Origin: a virus
Strand: one strand, 5' to 3'
Length of the DNA stretch: 38,572 bases
Virus record (IMG/VR): IMGVR_UViG_3300025853_000247
Span: 1 to 38,572 of that record
The notes beneath the pieces were generated by a model. That model saw nothing but the letters and a program-made list of their open reading frames with translations. It had not been told where the DNA came from and searched no databases. The position numbers and the translations under genes are program-made. Of this stretch, positions 1 to 7,401 are shown one piece after another. Position 1 is the first letter of the stretch. The number at the start of each line of letters is the position of its first letter.

Positions 1-75
1 CAGAGACTTGCCACCCTGTCCTCCGATGAGTCAGGTCCAACGCACACGATATTAGCCTGTGCTAGCCGTTACTGA
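1..75. other. Window edge, possible end of a neighbouring gene
   Basis: This short stretch is open in two directions and I cannot decide between them. On the + strand, frame 1 is open from the window edge to a TGA at 73-75, which would be the last 24 codons of a rightward gene converging on the GIY-YIG gene with a short overlap. On the - strand another frame is open from about 70 to the edge but shows no ATG and no ribosome binding site. No motif is recognisable in either reading. Confidence 0.15.
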
Positions 76-499
76 TTTTGTTTAAGATGTGGGAGCCATG
101 GACACGGACTTGTATATGTCCGTTATAATATTCATTTGATTCTAATACACGTCTTAGGAATTGTTCTCTTGCTTCAACGTAACTGCATTCTGCTTTACTC
201 TTACAAAGGTATAGTATTTCCCTTGTAAAATTTTCACTGCCTAATGTTTTTACGTCTTCGATTAATTCCAAATTTGAGCCATAATATTCGCGCCAGTCAG
301 AATCGACTTGTGATCGAATCTTTCTTTTGCGTTTGTTACCATTTTTATATTTTACAGTTCTTACTGAAGTTTTTCTAAATTTTGCTAATTTTTTGCCTAT
401 GTATTTGCGCCCTGATACACAGTTTGTAATGAGATATACAAATCCAGCACAGTCCTCGGGTAATTGTTCAAGGTCTTTACCTTCATACAGCCAAGTCAT
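62..499 (-). CDS. GIY-YIG nuclease, SegE-like
   Basis: Putative DNA endonuclease of the GIY-YIG superfamily. The N-terminal half carries a divergent version of the signature: GFVYLI at residues 19-24 stands for GIY, and KYIGKK at 32-37 stands for YIG. A DWREYYGSN block follows at 68-76, a motif I associate with the SegE-like GIY-YIG proteins of T4-like phages. The region at 41-66 is very basic and could contact DNA. At 145 residues it is a nuclease domain with little room for a separate DNA-binding domain. It lies last in the leftward block after gp46. In T4, Seg proteins are freestanding homing endonucleases; whether this one is a homing enzyme or a repair-type nuclease cannot be told here. 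The start is ATG at 499; an in-frame stop lies five codons upstream. No good Shine-Dalgarno sequence precedes it. Confidence 0.7.
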   Translation of the reverse strand: MTWLYEGKDLEQLPEDCAGFVYLITNCVSGRKYIGKKLAKFRKTSVRTVKYKNGNKRKRKIRSQVDSDWREYYGSNLELIEDVKTLGSENFTREILYLCKSKAECSYVEAREQFLRRVLESNEYYNGHIQVRVHGSHILNKISNG

Positions 500-570: not shown

Positions 571-2343
571 TTATACAACTTCTACATCCGTTGTATAACT
601 GGTAAATCCGTTTTCTTTGACTACAGTTAAAATATTATTTACACGCCCAGCCAATTCGTCTTTGTGGCTGACAAGCCAGATACTCTTGTTGCTTTCTCTG
701 CTCATTTTCTTAAGAATAGCCAAACTGTTTTCTACACCCGAAGCATCCATACCCGAATCTACTAACTCATCGATAAACAACAAGTTGATAGGTTGATACA
801 GACTTTCCCATACATCACGGAAACTCCAACTTAAACTGAGGATCAAACGATTGCGTTCTCCCCTACTCAAGTTGTCAAAGTCTAACTCACGACCTAATTC
901 TTCAATGCTTACAGTTAAGTCGTTTAAGAATTTGACCTGGTGTGGCAAACCAATACGATCCAGATACTGCGCCAATCTGCCGTTTAAGTAACTGAGGTTC
1001 TGATCAATGATCTTTTTACGAATAAATGAATCTTTGTTGGTCAACAGTTTGAGCAAGAACTCTTGGTGCTCTTTGACTCTGGTCAATTCATTGATAGTGT
1101 CGTAAGTAATCTCTTCAACCGCAGTTTCTTTCATTTCTGCGATCTGTTCACTGTAGGGATCCGGTTCTTCCTGTTTGGCAGTTAACTGCGTTAGCACACT
1201 GCCCATACTGCTTCTATGTTCAAATGCATCTGCTTCTGCTGAGTAAAATGTTTCGGGCCGACTGCCTAACTCGCCTATGTCTGCTACAGTTTTTGTGTGC
1301 TCCTGCCATTGTGTGTCATTTGTTAATAACTGTAGTGCGGCTTCTTGCTTTTGTTCTTGCTTGCTTTTAAGTATTTCTTCTTGCTTGGCATCGTGTATGT
1401 CCTGCCCACAAGCATGGCACTTATGGTCTTCCAATAGAGCAATTTCTTTTTCTAGTTTGTCAATGAGTTTCTGTTGTTTGTCGTTGTCACGTTCAATACT
1501 AGTAATCCATTTTGTGCATTCGTCAACTTGCGACTTTTTACGGTCATAATCTGCCAACAGTTTGTGTGCAGCCAATTCTGCTTCAATGTCTAACTTGGCC
1601 AGTTCGTCATAGGCACTTTGTAAAGCAGCAACTTCACTGTCTTTTTTCTTTTGCCACAGTACTTGCCTGCGCTCTAAACTTTCAATTTGATTGTTGATGC
1701 GCTCGTTGGCATCTGACACTGCTTTAATTCTTGCTTCTTCATGTTGAATGGCATCTTTAGTAGAACGATTTAGCTCTTTCAATGCTTCAGCTTTTTCACT
1801 CAGCATGGTAATACCCAGAAGCTGCTCAATGATAGCACGTTGGTCATTGGCCCGCATACTGAGAAAAGGCTCTGTATAAGTGTTTAAGGCTACAACGTGC
1901 TTGAACATGTCATGACTCATGTTGAGCAAGCGTTCGATTTCCTGTTGTGTTTCTCTGCTGTCACCTTGACTGTTGTCGTCTCTACTTTCCTGCTCTTCGT
2001 CGTTGACATAGAACTTGAGCACATTGGGTTTGCGTCCACGCTCAATCCTGTAACTCTGTCCTTCGCAGTCAAAGTCGATGGTGATCAACATGGCCTTGCC
2101 GTTGGTCTTGTTGATTAGATTATCTTTTTTGATGTTAGTCAGTGCCTGTCCAAACAGTGCATAACTAAGTGCATTGATGATTGTAGTCTTGCCTGTACCG
2201 TTACGTGCGCCACTATCATCGCCACCCAAGTCTAAGTTTTCACCTAACACCAAAGTCAAGTCTTGGCGATCAAAGTCAATGCCCTGTGTGGCATTGCCCA
2301 CGCTCATAAAGTTTTTAACTGACAGTGTTTTTATTTTGAACAT
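571..2343 (-). CDS. gp46: gp46, recombination endonuclease subunit (Rad50/SbcC-like)
   Basis: ATPase subunit of the gp46/gp47 complex, the phage equivalent of Rad50/Mre11. It resects DNA ends for recombination-dependent replication, repair and host DNA breakdown. Visible motifs are the Walker A loop GARNGTGKTT at residues 45-54, a long charged coiled-coil region interrupted by a CxxC zinc hook (CHAC, C309 and C312), the ABC signature LSRGERNRL near 490-498, and Walker B LLFIDELVD near 516-524. Its length (590) is in the usual range for T4 gp46. The start overlaps the end of the upstream gene by 29 nt, so translation is probably coupled. In T4, genes 47 and 46 lie close together; here two unrelated low-GC genes sit between them. 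Confidence 0.95.
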   Translation of the reverse strand: MFKIKTLSVKNFMSVGNATQGIDFDRQDLTLVLGENLDLGGDDSGARNGTGKTTIINALSYALFGQALTNIKKDNLINKTNGKAMLITIDFDCEGQSYRIERGRKPNVLKFYVNDEEQESRDDNSQGDSRETQQEIERLLNMSHDMFKHVVALNTYTEPFLSMRANDQRAIIEQLLGITMLSEKAEALKELNRSTKDAIQHEEARIKAVSDANERINNQIESLERRQVLWQKKKDSEVAALQSAYDELAKLDIEAELAAHKLLADYDRKKSQVDECTKWITSIERDNDKQQKLIDKLEKEIALLEDHKCHACGQDIHDAKQEEILKSKQEQKQEAALQLLTNDTQWQEHTKTVADIGELGSRPETFYSAEADAFEHRSSMGSVLTQLTAKQEEPDPYSEQIAEMKETAVEEITYDTINELTRVKEHQEFLLKLLTNKDSFIRKKIIDQNLSYLNGRLAQYLDRIGLPHQVKFLNDLTVSIEELGRELDFDNLSRGERNRLILSLSWSFRDVWESLYQPINLLFIDELVDSGMDASGVENSLAILKKMSRESNKSIWLVSHKDELAGRVNNILTVVKENGFTSYTTDVEVV

Positions 2344-3409
2344 TATCGCTTATTTCTTTATAAATTGGTTTGAATACTTGATCGATGTAGTCTAAAATTA
2401 TTTGCCTATTATACAACAGTCTACTTTCTAATTCAAGATTTATTTGTTTCAAATAGTCTAGCGGCCACTTAGAAACAATCTCCGCTTGTTTCATAACTGC
2501 CAAGAATCTTTCACTGGGATCTTCAATGGAGTCATAACTTTCATCCCAGTAATCGTCAAAAGTTTTTATTCCAAACGACTGCAGATATCGAATAGTTCCT
2601 ACCGCACCCAATATGATAAAAGGAGTTGTACACAATATTGGTCTCAATATTTTTTCACTTATGTAAACAGATGGGTAATCAAAAACTGATTCGGACACTA
2701 AATCTACTGCGAATTCTTTGTAAAAATCAGATCCGTTTGGTGGTATATTTGGATTTATGTAACTTTTTGGTACAGGAATTTGATTTAAAAATAAAATTTC
2801 TTTGTTTTGCGTTAACGTTGTCCAATCTTCACTAACTGAAATCGCATTATTGTAAACATAATCCAAATTGTCATCGATATTGCTCTGATTTTGATTTGTA
2901 GGTATTTCACTTAGCATTTTAGTGTTTGGATTGTTAATTGAATACTGAATCTCCGAACAATTATTTTTAATGATGTAGGCTATAAGTTTTTCTCTATGTG
3001 CTCTTAATAAGCCCACCATACACAACATAGGATATATTATATTTTTCCTATATCTTATAATATCTTTAACATTGTTGTAACTATTATAGTTTAGAATAAG
3101 ATTAAAAACTTCCGGTTGGTCATTATTGTCAAAGTAAGGAATTAATTGTTTTTTAAGGTTACTACTGTTACAAATAAATCTAAAAACGAAACCAGGAAAT
3201 CCCATAGATTTAATCGCTAATAATAGATTGTATATTGTAAAACTCAAAGGAGAATTTAAAAAATAAAAGTCAGTGTCGTTATGTAAAACTACAATTCTTT
3301 CATTTGGCTTAAATTCTTCCTTAAAAAGTGTTTTTAACTTACCATGTAATGAAGGTGCGTCTTGCCGATAATGGATCAAGTCAATAACATCAATTACGCT
3401 AATAGTCAT
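2315..3409 (-). CDS. Putative glycosyltransferase-like protein inserted between gp47 and gp46
   Basis: Function not established. The C-terminal third contains a block (VSESVFDYPSVYISEKILRP, then GAVGTIRYLQSFGIKTFDDY) that resembles the SEK-type acceptor/donor region of fucosyltransferase-like (GT10-like) proteins seen in marine phages. This is a pattern judgement, not a demonstrated match. The N-terminal part begins with hydrophobic strands but shows no clear DxD. The gene starts at ATG 3409 behind a strong Shine-Dalgarno (GGAGGA on the minus strand, 3416-3421, 7 nt spacing). It overlaps the upstream gene by 11 nt and gp46 by 29 nt. Its DNA is clearly AT-richer than gp46 and gp47 (one 60-nt stretch counted by eye near 3200 is about 27% G+C). 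This suggests late acquisition as a cargo gene together with its upstream neighbour. Confidence 0.5.
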   Translation of the reverse strand: MTISVIDVIDLIHYRQDAPSLHGKLKTLFKEEFKPNERIVVLHNDTDFYFLNSPLSFTIYNLLLAIKSMGFPGFVFRFICNSSNLKKQLIPYFDNNDQPEVFNLILNYNSYNNVKDIIRYRKNIIYPMLCMVGLLRAHREKLIAYIIKNNCSEIQYSINNPNTKMLSEIPTNQNQSNIDDNLDYVYNNAISVSEDWTTLTQNKEILFLNQIPVPKSYINPNIPPNGSDFYKEFAVDLVSESVFDYPSVYISEKILRPILCTTPFIILGAVGTIRYLQSFGIKTFDDYWDESYDSIEDPSERFLAVMKQAEIVSKWPLDYLKQINLELESRLLYNRQIILDYIDQVFKPIYKEISDNVQNKNTVS

Positions 3410-4121
3410 GCAAGTTCCTCCAATGATTGTATATGTTTTCTAAATTTTCATATGGAATTATTTGCAAAGTATTTGCAATTTTTTGTAGGTTATCTATGAT
3501 ACTTTTATATTCTAGTAATTCACTTAGCGGGATCACAATATCGTTTTTTCCAACAGGAGGATTTTTAAAAAGATGAGTGAAGTTGTCTTCAATAATATTG
3601 TTCCTTATGAATCTATATAGACTGTTTGTTTTTACTTTGTACAGATTTTGGCTTTCAAAGCCAGCAATTTTATAACTGTCTCTATGTTCTTGTTGAGTAA
3701 TTTCATAGCCATCATCTATTTTACGTGCAGAGTATCGTTTGCGCCATTTGCTTTTATAGAACCATTTTAAACTTGGCTGATCTAGCATAATAGTAATTAT
3801 TTGATAATGCTGCATCCAATTTGGGATATTAAATTTATGTGTATGTAATGGTATCCACAAGTCGGCAAAATTTATTGGAAGATTTGATAAATCGTCCCCT
3901 CTTGTATATGTTGCACTGTAATATTGATTTATTGAATAGCAGTTTTTTGGTTCATTATCTAACCAAGAATCAAAATCGCTGGTAAAACTACTTTTAAACC
4001 ATTCTGAATCAGATTGCTCAGTGTTATTCCAAGATTGTATATCGGGGTGAAATCCTAGAAGAGCACAAAGCATTTTACCTGCACCTCCTGGCGGATAACG
4101 CACAACAAGAAATTTTGCCAC
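3399..4121 (-). CDS. Unknown protein with P-loop-like N-terminus
   Basis: Not recognised with confidence. The N-terminus reads as a hydrophobic strand followed by RYPPGGAGKMLCALLG (residues 8-23), which looks like a nucleotide or PAPS-binding loop. Sulfotransferase-type folds are one possibility, but no second diagnostic motif was found. The rest is rich in W, Y, N and K without clear repeats or membrane segments. Translation starts at GTG (4119-4121), whose G is the last base of the gp47 stop codon (TAGTG arrangement), so it is probably coupled to gp47. The DNA is strikingly AT-rich (a 60-nt sample at 3421-3480 has 14 G+C, 23%), unlike gp47 just upstream. It forms a two-gene insert with the putative glycosyltransferase. 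Confidence 0.55.
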   Translation of the reverse strand: MAKFLVVRYPPGGAGKMLCALLGFHPDIQSWNNTEQSDSEWFKSSFTSDFDSWLDNEPKNCYSINQYYSATYTRGDDLSNLPINFADLWIPLHTHKFNIPNWMQHYQIITIMLDQPSLKWFYKSKWRKRYSARKIDDGYEITQQEHRDSYKIAGFESQNLYKVKTNSLYRFIRNNIIEDNFTHLFKNPPVGKNDIVIPLSELLEYKSIIDNLQKIANTLQIIPYENLENIYNHWRNLHDY

Positions 4122-5137
4122 TAAAGATTCCTATAAATGTCCAGTAACAGATTATTATCGTAGTGATCGCTGGCAATAGCAGTTAGTTGATTAGTTACAA
4201 TCTGATCTACACTTTCGAACTGCACATTACCCTGTATTTCATACTCTGATAAGTCTGTATTCTTTTGCGGCAGCAGTGTAATCTCACGCAGGTTATACTG
4301 CCCAATAAAAGTTTCTTTGATAAAATTGGCTTCTTCGTAACTGATATCAATGTCCAAGTTCACACGCACATGCATACCTGGCGCCAGTATGTCGTCGGCA
4401 TGATCCAGTATTGCTGCCAAGCCTAACACACGGTATCTGGGTTGATCGGGCCAAGCATGATACTCAGGCTCTTTGCCCCATTCAATAACACACAGTCCTC
4501 TGTCATCATCACCAGCGTCTGCATAGTTGTGTGGAAAGCAGTTGCCAATATAAGTGATGTTGCCGTGGTTTTGTCTTTTGTGAAAGTGCCCTGTGTAAAC
4601 TTGTTCACAGGCCCGAAACTGTTCACGTTTGACTTCACCGTGATCGGGCATCTGCACCATGGCGTTCATGTAAAAGTGAGGAAGTTCAAAGTGTCCAAAT
4701 ACATATTTGGTCTTTAGTTTTGGCACACGTTTGTAGTCATCACCTACCAACCAAGGTGCAATAGTTACATCACCTTCCGAGAACCAATCATTACAGATTC
4801 TAACATTGGGCAAATGTCTAGCCCACTCTACACTCTGTATGTCACGTTTGTCCCTATAGTACAAATCGTGGTTACCAGGGATAAAGTAGACCTGATCAAA
4901 GTTTGCGTTTAAATGCTCTAAGGCCTGCAGACTGTAGTTCAGTGTAACAATATTAATACTGGCACGGTTGTTGTGCCAGTCCCCCAGGAATAAAGCAGTT
5001 TCGCAGCCTTGGTCTCGTGCAGTCTGAGTAGCCCATTTGACAAAGTTCAAACAGTCTTCGTTATGCAGTTGACTGTTTGACTTTAAGCCAAAGTGTATGT
5101 CCGTGAACACGGCTGCTTTTTTGAATAGATTAGCCAT
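4121..5137 (-). CDS. gp47: gp47, recombination endonuclease subunit (Mre11/SbcD-like)
   Basis: Metal-dependent nuclease subunit that pairs with gp46. All metallophosphoesterase motifs of the Mre11/SbcD family are present: TDIHFG at 12-17 (D13, H15), GDWHNN at 52-57, PGNHD at 87-91, GHFE at 148-151, and TGHFH at 182-186. Length (338) is almost the same as T4 gp47. The C-terminal half lacks strong motifs, as expected for the capping and gp46-binding part. The ATG at 5137 lies 47 nt downstream of the gp55 stop. No Shine-Dalgarno is seen, but a TATAAT hexamer ends only six bases before the ATG on the minus strand (see the promoter entry). The stop codon overlaps the GTG of the next gene by one base. 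Confidence 0.95.
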   Translation of the reverse strand: MANLFKKAAVFTDIHFGLKSNSQLHNEDCLNFVKWATQTARDQGCETALFLGDWHNNRASINIVTLNYSLQALEHLNANFDQVYFIPGNHDLYYRDKRDIQSVEWARHLPNVRICNDWFSEGDVTIAPWLVGDDYKRVPKLKTKYVFGHFELPHFYMNAMVQMPDHGEVKREQFRACEQVYTGHFHKRQNHGNITYIGNCFPHNYADAGDDDRGLCVIEWGKEPEYHAWPDQPRYRVLGLAAILDHADDILAPGMHVRVNLDIDISYEEANFIKETFIGQYNLREITLLPQKNTDLSEYEIQGNVQFESVDQIVTNQLTAIASDHYDNNLLLDIYRNL

Positions 5138-5184: not shown

Positions 5185-6063
5185 TCATTCGTCGTAATAT
5201 CCGCCACCACCACCAGTCATCATGCCCTGTCGTGTATAACTGGGGTTTAGGTTGTTCATTTCTAAAATGTCATCTCTGATATTTTGGTTACGTTTTTCAA
5301 TGTTGAGCACACGAGTAAACGAGTTAGTAATTGCCGCAGTATAGTAAGCAAATGGGTTCTGACTCTTGCTTTCATCAAACTGTAAGCCAATTTGGCTTAA
5401 CTGTAGCAGTGCCTGGCTACGCATTTCGTCGTTGTAAGTGTAGCCGCGCCAATTTGATCGAGTAGCATAACGCTCGCACAGTTTCATAAACATGTGTGCC
5501 AATTTGTTGGTCATTTGTCCATGCTCACGTGAAAATTCTCCCGACTCTAAATCGCCCCGCCAGTGACTTTTGCCTACCAGTACAGGTTCACCCTCGGCAT
5601 CGACACGATAGTGATAAAACGGTGGAAAGTTTACTTTGACATACTTGTTATGTTTAGGATCTTCCTCGTCATACTCGGTGTGTGCTGGTTCGTCCTCATC
5701 GTCAACTAAGTCTTTAGCCTGTTGACGTGCTTTGTTAGTTTTGACTTCATCTAAGGGGATATGCTCCCAAGTCATTACACGAAACACACAGTCAGTTTGT
5801 GGGATTTTGGTATACTTAATTTCAAAATCTTCTAACTTTTGCTTTTGTCCTGTTTCTTTTACAGCCTGCTCATGTGCCAGTTTGGTCAAGCGTTCCGCCC
5901 TTGCACGGCGTGCAGCCACAATGTTTTTCTTATTGATTTTTTTGACACTGTCTACGATCATGTCAAAATTAGCAGCGTCTTGGTCCAAATAACTGCAATA
6001 GGTAGTTTTACTTTTGTGTATTTCTTTAAGAATATCTTTATTATTAAGGTAATTGTGTTTAAT
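5185..6063 (-). CDS. gp55: gp55, late-transcription sigma factor, with apparent ATT start
   Basis: Phage sigma factor that directs host RNA polymerase to late promoters. The core NWRGYTYNDEM through NPFAYYTAAITNSFTRVL (residues 204-253 in this numbering) lines up with T4 gp55 NFSGYTQSWKQEM through NPHAYITQACFNAFVQRI. The first conventional start would be TTG at 5988 and has no ribosome site. The frame stays open upstream, and the extension HNYLNNKDILKEI matches the T4 gp55 N-terminus YNYVNNKELLQAI. Seven bases before an ATT codon (6061-6063) lies a strong AAAGGAG. I therefore place the start at ATT, giving 292 residues. No ATG or GTG exists in the extension. The protein is about 100 residues longer than T4 gp55, with an acidic insert near 119-137. 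It ends in GGGGGYYDE instead of the hydrophobic clamp-binding tail of T4 gp55. It is driven by the promoter at 6089-6117. Confidence 0.9.
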   Translation of the reverse strand: MKHNYLNNKDILKEIHKSKTTYCSYLDQDAANFDMIVDSVKKINKKNIVAARRARAERLTKLAHEQAVKETGQKQKLEDFEIKYTKIPQTDCVFRVMTWEHIPLDEVKTNKARQQAKDLVDDEDEPAHTEYDEEDPKHNKYVKVNFPPFYHYRVDAEGEPVLVGKSHWRGDLESGEFSREHGQMTNKLAHMFMKLCERYATRSNWRGYTYNDEMRSQALLQLSQIGLQFDESKSQNPFAYYTAAITNSFTRVLNIEKRNQNIRDDILEMNNLNPSYTRQGMMTGGGGGYYDE

Positions 6064-6070
6064 AACCGTT

Positions 6071-6077
6071 CTCCTTT
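6071..6077 (-). promoter_or_regulatory. Ribosome binding site that decides the gp55 start
   Basis: Minus-strand AAAGGAG, separated by 7 nt from ATT at 6061-6063 and by more than 80 nt from the TTG at 5988. It is one of the strongest Shine-Dalgarno sequences in the window, and its spacing supports initiation at ATT. Confidence 0.75.
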
Positions 6078-6088
6078 ATACTGTTATA

Positions 6089-6117
6089 ATAGTAACATAG
6101 TTTTACTGGGTTGTCAA
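6089..6117 (-). promoter_or_regulatory. Sigma70-type (early) promoter of gp55
   Basis: On the minus strand a perfect TTGACA (6112-6117) is followed after 17 nt by TACTAT (6089-6094). The predicted start near 6082 would leave a leader of roughly 20 nt containing the AAAGGAG ribosome site. Position, spacing and strand fit the leftward gp55-gp47-gp46 block being read by unmodified host polymerase. Confidence 0.7.
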
Positions 6118-6149: not shown

Positions 6150-6157
6150 GATAAATA
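6150..6157 (+). promoter_or_regulatory. T4-type late promoter upstream of gp48
   Basis: GATAAATA, seven of eight bases of the T4 late consensus TATAAATA, 18 nt before the gp48 ATG in the divergent control region. It is followed by AAATCGGAAT, a leader motif shared with three other late promoters here. It is the first late promoter of the structural block. Confidence 0.7.
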
Positions 6158-6175: not shown

Positions 6176-7087
6176 ATGGCAAATTTACAGCAAGGTCCTA
6201 GTAGTAACTCAGACAACACAGATCCATCTGGAGTTAGTCAAACTGCTGGGGTAGCACCACAACAACAGTTTGCATCAGGCGGAGATGCAAGTGCATTTCG
6301 TTTAAGTACCCTTGCAGAAGGCATTGTAAAAGGTGGAGCCTTTGCTTTGGAAGCCATAGCTGGTAGTGTATTTAACTTTAATTCTACTGGTGCGAACCCT
6401 AGTTCAATTGGTCCTGACGATGACTGGCGTGTGCGTATTAGTATGCAACCACAGACTGCTGCATTGTTTTATAATAATCCAGGTAATCCTATATTGTACC
6501 CGTTGAGTCAAACCAATGGTGTAGTTTTTCCTTATACTCCACAAGTAGATATTTCACACCAGGCTGATTACACAGCGCAACCATTAACACATAGCAATTA
6601 TCAAAGTTACTTTTATGACAAAAGTTCAGTACAACGTATAAACATTACTGCTGATTTTACTGTACAAAATATTCAAGAAGGACAGTATCTTGCTGCAGTT
6701 ATGCAATTCTTAAAAAGCACAACAAAAATGTTTTTTGGAAATAGTCAACTAGCAGGTACACCACCTCCAATGGTGTTTTTAGACGGATATGGTCCAGCAA
6801 TTTTACCACACGTTCCTTGTGTAGTGACAGATTTTAGTTATACTATGCCTGGTGATGTAGACTATATAAAAATACCAGTTGGCGCCAGTTTGCAAAGCAC
6901 CGCCGGCAATCCCATACAAAATAGTAATTATGCAGTACCAGCAAGACTGCCCACTGCTTGTACATTACGTATCGGACTACAGCCAATTTACAGCAAAAAT
7001 AACGTGGCAAGAAACTTTACACTAGAGCGTTATGCTGCTGGAGGCCTGATACAAGATTCACGTGGCGCTAGGGGAGGATTTATTTAA
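6176..7087 (+). CDS. gp48: Baseplate tail-tube cap protein, gp48-like
   Basis: Likely forms the platform on which the tail tube is built. The first 75 residues are a flexible Gly/Gln/Ser-rich arm. A compact beta-rich domain follows (DWRVRI near 85, VFPYTPQVDISHQADY near 117-132, INITADFTVQNIQEGQYLAA near 160-179, PCVVTDFSYTMPGDVDYIKIP near 213-233). This layout resembles the tube-type fold of gp19/gp48/gp54. The choice of gp48 over gp54 rests on position directly upstream of gp53 in marine T4-like genomes, not on a specific motif. It is the first gene of the late structural block, read from the late promoter at 6150, and its end overlaps the gp53 start. Confidence 0.6.
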   Translation: MANLQQGPSSNSDNTDPSGVSQTAGVAPQQQFASGGDASAFRLSTLAEGIVKGGAFALEAIAGSVFNFNSTGANPSSIGPDDDWRVRISMQPQTAALFYNNPGNPILYPLSQTNGVVFPYTPQVDISHQADYTAQPLTHSNYQSYFYDKSSVQRINITADFTVQNIQEGQYLAAVMQFLKSTTKMFFGNSQLAGTPPPMVFLDGYGPAILPHVPCVVTDFSYTMPGDVDYIKIPVGASLQSTAGNPIQNSNYAVPARLPTACTLRIGLQPIYSKNNVARNFTLERYAAGGLIQDSRGARGGFI

Positions 7088-7401
7088 TGGCACGGTCTAG
7101 TTCTAAGGTTGAATACAACTCAACAAGTCCTTATTACAATACACCGGTTATTGGAGGATACCTGGATTTAGCAAACATTCCTAGCATTCCTAAACTGCAA
7201 GGTGATGTTATTGTTACTGTAAACAAGACTTATCAGTATCGGCCGGACCTATTAGCATATGACTTATACGGTGATCCTGGATTATGGTGGGTGTTTGCTG
7301 TAAGAAACCCAAATGTAATAAACGATCCCATTTTTGACATGCGTATTGGTAAACGTATTGCAGTACCTAAAAAAGAAACATTACAAGGTATCATTACATA
7401 A
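7087..7401 (+). CDS. gp53: gp53, baseplate wedge subunit
   Basis: Baseplate wedge protein that in T4 joins the wedges around the hub. The block YQYRPDLLAYDLYGDPGLWWVFAVRNPN (residues about 49-76, seen as two adjoining motifs) is the hallmark of gp53-like proteins, followed by a LysM-like end IGKRIAVPKKE. At 104 residues it is about half of T4 gp53 and keeps only the core. A good Shine-Dalgarno (GGGGAGGA, 7071-7078) lies inside the end of the preceding gene. Start and stop overlap the neighbours by one base each, so the three genes are translationally linked. Confidence 0.85.
   Translation: MARSSSKVEYNSTSPYYNTPVIGGYLDLANIPSIPKLQGDVIVTVNKTYQYRPDLLAYDLYGDPGLWWVFAVRNPNVINDPIFDMRIGKRIAVPKKETLQGIIT

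Follow-up and report, generated by a model that had tools for sequence, protein, structure and literature searches.

The gene for the late sigma factor gp55 in the window (the whole stretch of 38,572 nucleotides analysed here, IMG/VR record IMGVR_UViG_3300025853_000247) is almost certainly translated from an ATT codon, a conclusion that rests on comparison alone, without peptide evidence. The start lies behind a strong Shine-Dalgarno sequence (SD) and a putative strong promoter, and we consider it likely that these are braked by a codon which initiation factor IF3 rejects, and that the arrangement has been selected to limit or time the switch to late genes. The reduced initiation, the dependence on IF3 and the role in timing are inferred. 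As one part of this explanation, the pairing of AUU with a strong SD has probably been retained by selection in many T4-like, jumbo-related uncultured phages, as far as their sequences can tell.

Identity and surroundings of gp55

The features of the region are listed below, with positions in the window and the evidence in brackets.

5185–6063, minus strand: gp55, predicted late-transcription sigma factor, 292 amino acids counted from ATT (PHROG_12791, 7d7c_F)
6061–6063, minus strand: inferred ATT start codon of gp55 (comparison with relatives, choice of isoleucine codon)
6071–6077, minus strand: SD AAAGGAG, 7 nt ahead of ATT (sequence reading)
5986–5988, minus strand: TTG at codon 26, the earliest canonical start in the gp55 frame, rejected as start (seldom present in relatives, no SD seen)
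6089–6097, minus strand: extended -10 element TGTTACTAT, separated from the -35 hexamer by a 17 nt spacer (sequence)
6112–6117, minus strand: -35 hexamer TTGACA, perfect (sequence)
4121–5137, minus strand: gp47-like SbcD nuclease subunit, downstream neighbour of gp55 (phrog_100, E = 1e-59)
571–2343, minus strand: gp46-like SbcC subunit (phrog_77, E = 3e-101)

The protein matches PHROG_12791, 'sigma factor for late transcription', with an E-value of 4.1e-80 over residues 2–279 of 292, a range that includes the N-terminal extension above the TTG. A phmmer comparison with T4 gp55 (PDB chain 7d7c_F) returned an E-value of 1.2e-5 overall and paired residues 2–25, KHNYLNNKDILKEI, with KYNYVNNKELLQAI of the T4 protein. 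The likeness of the extension to the N-terminus of T4 gp55, on which the original prediction had leaned, is real in this alignment, although the segment by itself scores only 4 bits and is weak alone. Judged by these matches, the protein is an orthologue of the T4-type late sigma factor gp55; its binding to RNA polymerase and its role in late transcription are inferred.

The gene stands beside gp47 and gp46, much as in phages RaK2, CBB and PA5oct, and meets the gene-order criterion of the family; two extra ORFs separate genes 47 and 46. Upstream of gp55, the genes run the other way, in a block that includes baseplate genes. A candidate SegE-like GIY-YIG homing endonuclease (62–499, minus strand) is located downstream of gp46. 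Ahead of the divergent structural gene at 6176–7087, the motif GATAAATA (6150–6157, plus strand) resembles what we take to be the consensus of T4 late promoters.

Cover reaches 80% or more in 57 GenBank records, among which we inspected those of seven cultured jumbo phages (PA5oct, Atu_ph07, Phosso, CBB, RaK2, SCTP-2 and Vibrio 2.275.O). They encode a gp55 of the same family with a similar N-terminus which, unlike that of the window, begins at ATG, and the ATT or ATC start has therefore been met only in uncultured lineages.

Direct reading confirmed AAAGGAG at 6077–6071, followed by the spacer AACGGTT and the ATT. Only four codons (AGG AGA ACG GTT) separate the preceding in-frame TAA from the ATT, with no ATG, GTG or TTG among them. 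From the ATT through the codon before TTG 5988–5986 there are 25 codons, which read I K H N Y L N N K D I L K E I H K S K T T Y C S Y. The program-made ORF list gives the TTG as the start of gp55; an SD was looked for above this codon in the window sequence, and none was seen, as had originally been proposed.

Conservation of the start in relatives

We refer to ATT and ATC starts as AUY, and to ATG, GTG and TTG starts as NTG. A first scan of IMG/VR, which required the conserved motif and an upstream GGAG, returned 84 stretches with ATT, all of them gp55 on translation. To remove the selection bias, the scan was rerun without GGAG; ATT then stood at the identical position in 90 stretches, all of which were checked. 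Each carries a purine-rich SD: GGAG in 84, a single shared GGGGGA leader in five, and AAAGGGGAA in one. Scans with GGAG required, the only form in which AT[AC] was searched, gave seven ATC and no ATA stretches, and 15 NTG stretches (12 ATG and 3 GTG). After removal of duplicates, 75 unique AUY genes with GGAG remained (68 ATT, 7 ATC). In their information profile the SD, AGGAGA, stands out sharply, positions -3 to -1 are rich in A, AT[T/C] is invariant and a codon periodicity follows; conservation above the SD is low. Codons 2–25 are conserved in their amino acids, with synonymous change at third positions.

The choice of codon at the start differs from that at internal isoleucines of the same genes. 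For the rows of the tree described below, the starts comprise 69 ATT, 6 ATC and no ATA, against 569, 334 and 288 inside the genes; ATA is therefore used in 0 of 75 starts versus 288 of 1,191 internal isoleucine codons (Fisher, 4.5e-9). The 69 ATT starts include L100, in which a TTG directly above the ATT is the likelier start. An in-frame stop stands one codon above the ATT in three unique relatives (L004, L103 and L107). No canonical codon occurs in the open stretch above the start of 54 of the 75 unique genes, and among the 21 that have one, it is preceded by an SD of its own only in L100. Codon 26 is TTG in 12 of the 75 and the first internal canonical codon in nine; in the others, the first such codon falls anywhere from codon 6 to codon 96. 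Internal canonical codons were not individually tested for an SD. We place the start of gp55 at the ATT, as the original prediction did in preference to TTG 5988, because the position is conserved in many viral stretches, the codon choice is unlike that of internal isoleucines, stops lie close above in relatives, and TTG is seldom found at codon 26.

AUY is nevertheless a minority state, and the wider gp55 family starts mostly at ATG. A tblastn set comprising the best 80 loci among the matches listed included 76 with a readable start region, of which nine have ATT at the exact position; the rest have ATG, GTG or TTG, mostly there or a few codons away. ATT accounts for 9 of 54 unselected main-clade rows (best tblastn matches listed) and for five of the six unselected rows inside a supported 22-row clade around the window, and a wider motif scan found AUY in one (L082), at most two, of 120 stretches among the matches listed. 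ATT rows are enriched by the design of the scans, NTG start codons were called by rule, and many records are fragments. The original prediction had suggested that close relatives be aligned to see whether ATT is kept or replaced; it is kept in many, with ATG, GTG or TTG instead in others. One correction is needed: the AUU start is not peculiar to this phage, being common to many of its relatives.

Several distant members of the family stand apart. L194, L209, L249 and L283 show no clear start, with neither ATG nor GTG nor TTG in the 17 codons that precede the conserved motif; L249 might start at ATA. In the distant group L305–L309, an ATT lies behind GGGGGACCCC, an unusual G-rich SD. In L123, the gp55 frame with its ATT start extends to 617 codons, as if fused to another gene.

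Promoter, leader and the strength of other SDs

In the window, the extended -10 element ends 25 nt above the ATT. Of 71 unique AUY leaders, 48 have the pattern TGnTAnnnT at a distance like this, compared with a mean of 3.4 and a maximum of 7 in 50 base-shuffled sets. From the position of the promoter we therefore infer a leader of about 18–20 nt and a transcript on which gp55 comes first.

A search for further AUY starts covered 895 kb of AUY-phage DNA from 92 sources, some of them near-identical, with 709 frames that are 90 codons or longer. The test left out 609 frames in whose searched part no start-like codon has AGGAG 5–8 nt ahead of it. The 100 strong-SD frames comprised seven with a canonical start and 93 with only ATT, ATC, ATA or CTG, and 72 of these 93 are gp55. 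The other 21 consist of six in which ATT lies 95–140 codons inside the frame, nine in which ATA directly precedes the ATG of a baseplate wedge gene, and six further ATA cases, three deep inside the frame and three (L133, L142 and L162) 25–38 codons in. Among the 100 strong-SD frames, a convincing AUY start is found in gp55 alone.

A sample of 522 other genes had a mean SD energy of -3.5 (shuffled, -2.7), with 27% reaching -5. A strong SD is thus uncommon in AUY phages, and gp55 joins it to a weak start codon. The baseplate wedge gene of the window (7087–7401, plus strand) also has a very strong SD, GGGGAGG, about 9 nt before its ATG, and several relatives have AGGAGG there; in many other genes the SD is slight.

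Coupling of start codon and SD

Start codon and SD vary together. In the main clade, GGAG precedes the start in all nine ATT genes and in 2 of 45 NTG genes, among the tblastn matches listed, which were fetched irrespective of start codon. For the whole unselected set (72 unique rows in which a start was called, among the matches listed), the figures are 9 of 9 ATT and 17 of 63 NTG genes, and the SD pairing energy is -8.3 kcal/mol for the former and -6.0 kcal/mol for the latter (p = 2e-5). A quick maximum-likelihood tree built from 121 main-clade rows, which are ATT-enriched by the scans, requires at least 14 interchanges between AUY and NTG, and wider FastTrees of 238 and 227 rows gave 15 and 12 such changes. 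A test that allows for kinship, from which rows selected for NTG with GGAG and L100 were left out, yielded eight supported independent pairs; on average 5.2 of these had the stronger SD on the AUY side, and none had it on the NTG side; the sign test was borderline (p 0.03–0.13, median 0.06). After correction for kinship, the association is suggestive only. Because lineages switch repeatedly between AUY and ATG, GTG or TTG, the AUY start must be regarded as dispensable.

The same pattern could arise by compensatory drift, if selection acted on the total rate of initiation alone and AUU with a strong SD were roughly equal to NTG with a weaker one, the AUU then having no regulatory meaning. The tight coupling and the approximately 14 changes of start type agree with this, as does the persistence of GTG relatives despite their weak SD, and the weaker SD of NTG relatives could mean just a constant total rate. 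However, the cost of AUU is large where it has been measured (about tenfold in S. aureus), and an SD stronger by 2.3 kcal/mol may not restore the loss. Under drift, several genes with AUY might also be expected, whereas among the strong-SD frames of the DNA examined a convincing one is confined to gp55; and ATA, likewise near-cognate, was met at the gp55 start neither in the ATA scan, which was run with GGAG only, nor in the tree rows. We therefore judge drift to be rather unlikely, without setting it aside.

Starts other than the ATT

The reading that gp55 begins at TTG 5988, with the similarity above it a relic, has in its favour that the ORF offers no canonical codon before this TTG. It is highly improbable, given the absence of a visible SD, the rarity of TTG at codon 26 and the synonymous pattern of change in codons 2–25; the seven cultured relatives inspected also begin above the conserved motif. 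The original prediction would have fallen had relatives lacked similarity upstream of the TTG, and that similarity is present at the amino-acid level.

Still less credible is a start above the ATT, at ACG or GTT or in a shifted frame, which would make the ATT an internal isoleucine codon. The ACG of the window is likewise near-cognate, but it lies just 1 nt after the SD. A single codon separates the in-frame stop from the ATT in the three relatives named above, and ATA, which would be expected among internal isoleucine codons, is absent from the start. The ATG that lies upstream in the window shares bases with the -10 element and opens a frame that meets a stop within five codons.

A sequencing or assembly error hiding an ATG, one base away from ATT and named at the outset as something that would refute the ATT start, is excluded for practical purposes because the same ATT recurs in 90 stretches from many metagenomes and ATC in seven more, and because ATT and NTG genes show a systematic difference in their SD; four loci on contigs with four other metagenome numbers (L112, L129, L136 and L154) are moreover identical to the window in the leader and the first 32 residues, which argues against a read error.

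A proposed brake on the late switch

We propose that the promoter, close to the sigma70 consensus, the short leader and the strong SD would drive the expression of gp55, while the AUU start, discriminated against by host IF3, would brake its initiation, as in infC and sigR. The brake might hold the amount of gp55 low and constant. Alternatively, gp55 synthesis might follow the ratio of IF3 to free ribosomes, and late transcription would be delayed or tuned in consequence. A fixed low dose and a timed release are not distinguishable from sequence. We hold only tentatively, and with more doubt than belief, to AUU or AUC as a timer, in which gp55 mRNA would be made early from the strong promoter and its productive initiation blocked by host IF3 until infection shifts the IF3-to-ribosome ratio. 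If true, the phage would start its late transcription in response to the state of the translation machinery of its host. The wider suggestion of the original prediction, a regulatory, low-rate start sensitive to IF3, fits the use of AUU and AUC, the repeated switching, the coupling to the SD and the near-consensus promoter; dependence on IF3 remains inferred.

IF3 has been reported in a few group 2.2 jumbo phages (PMC7824862) and more widely in huge phages (PMC7162821). A search for PF00707, with a control that was positive in 10 of 14 genomes, found no IF3 gene in 49 AUY records, among them the 338-kb and the 360-kb relative. Any control would therefore come from the IF3 of the host, although absence of a phage IF3 is unproven because many of the 49 records are fragments.

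Other factors were considered and rejected. Phage ribosomal protein S21, as a switch acting on the SD, is not a general explanation because it is present in just 1 of the 49 AUY records. This bS21 is encoded by the 338-kb relative (L319, record G017, 48204–48359). The same relative, whose gp55 has an AUU start, carries an initiator-like CAU tRNA (L350, 10651–10726) within a 16-kb block of 39 tRNA genes; the tRNA has an A1:A72 mismatch, a CUCAUAA loop and, in the anticodon stem, two G-C pairs where an initiator has three. A special initiator tRNA matched to AUU is not supported, since L009, a gp55 with a GTG start, lies in a 354-kb record that encodes an 83% relative of this tRNA, and the other 48 records gave no match. 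In the 360-kb relative with an AUU gp55 (L351), tRNA genes at 3353–3429, 3879–3954 and 4203–4280 have the anticodons CUA, CUA and UUA, and these are possible stop-codon suppressors. An alternative genetic code found no clear support: readthrough of TAG or TGA raised long-frame coverage little in the window and in L113, and the rise in L141 from 0.74 to 0.85 (TAG) or 0.82 (TGA) is not regarded as a clear sign of recoding.

RNA structure over the start was no better than in shuffled sequences for five of the six leaders folded (four ATT and two NTG); in the remaining one, the ATT leader L038, z was -2.0 and 9 of 200 shuffles folded as well. As clues to the host, photosystem genes were found in 0 of 37 records, and the sole match among named genomes (L311) proved to be fortuitous, its frame stopping shortly after the motif.

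Significance and comparison with known systems

IF3-type control of the start codon is known from a handful of cellular genes; the arrangement would extend it to the protein by which a T4-like phage is committed to its late programme, the control itself being inferred. The arrangement is seen in dozens of uncultured phages, and the repeated natural switches between AUY and NTG starts provide ready-made pairs for testing the timing of late transcription. Gene callers restricted to ATG, GTG and TTG would be expected to misplace the N-terminus of gp55 in AUY phages. Judged by titles and the openings of abstracts among the open-access matches listed, no report deals with a non-canonical start in a phage sigma factor, whether gp55 or any other; one phage paper (PMC13072308) uses the phrase 'non-canonical start codon' once.

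AUU starts have precedents of several kinds. The AUU start of E. coli pcnB limits its expression. Gene 26 of T4 has an internal AUU start, and thus offers the codon in a T4 phage gene; it yields an internal second baseplate product, not a switch protein.

The closest parallels are cellular. IF3 represses initiation at non-canonical codons, and its own gene, infC, starts at ATT in E. coli and at ATC in Streptomyces (PMC5472188), the identical two codons found in phage gp55. In infC this IF3-discriminated start serves the autoregulation of IF3, whereas the AUY phage records hold no IF3 gene. Streptomyces sigR has a GTC start with an extensive, conserved SD, and its repression by IF3 has been measured (PMC5472188); here a sigma factor is throttled through a conserved non-canonical start and a conserved SD, like the brake proposed for gp55. 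Unlike the phage protein, however, sigR encodes a cellular stress sigma factor that is balanced against an anti-sigma factor, and its start is GTC, not AUU. In S. aureus, cvfC1 (AUU) and ccpN (AUA) have conserved extended SDs and reach about 10% of the output of AUG in poor medium; in rich medium, ccpN rises to 30% and cvfC1 is unchanged (PMC13009471). As in phage gp55, a non-canonical start and a strong extended SD are kept across species, but these are non-phage genes of a Firmicute whose starts, unlike that of gp55, were mapped by Ribo-Ret. Phage gp55 meets the sequence criteria of genes with an IF3-discriminated start (infC, pcnB, sigR and ccpN), namely a conserved non-canonical codon, a strong and well-spaced SD, and no usable canonical start nearby. 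The anatomy of its start is that of infC, sigR and ccpN, from which we infer by analogy that output would rise if the codon were ATG or if IF3 were weakened.
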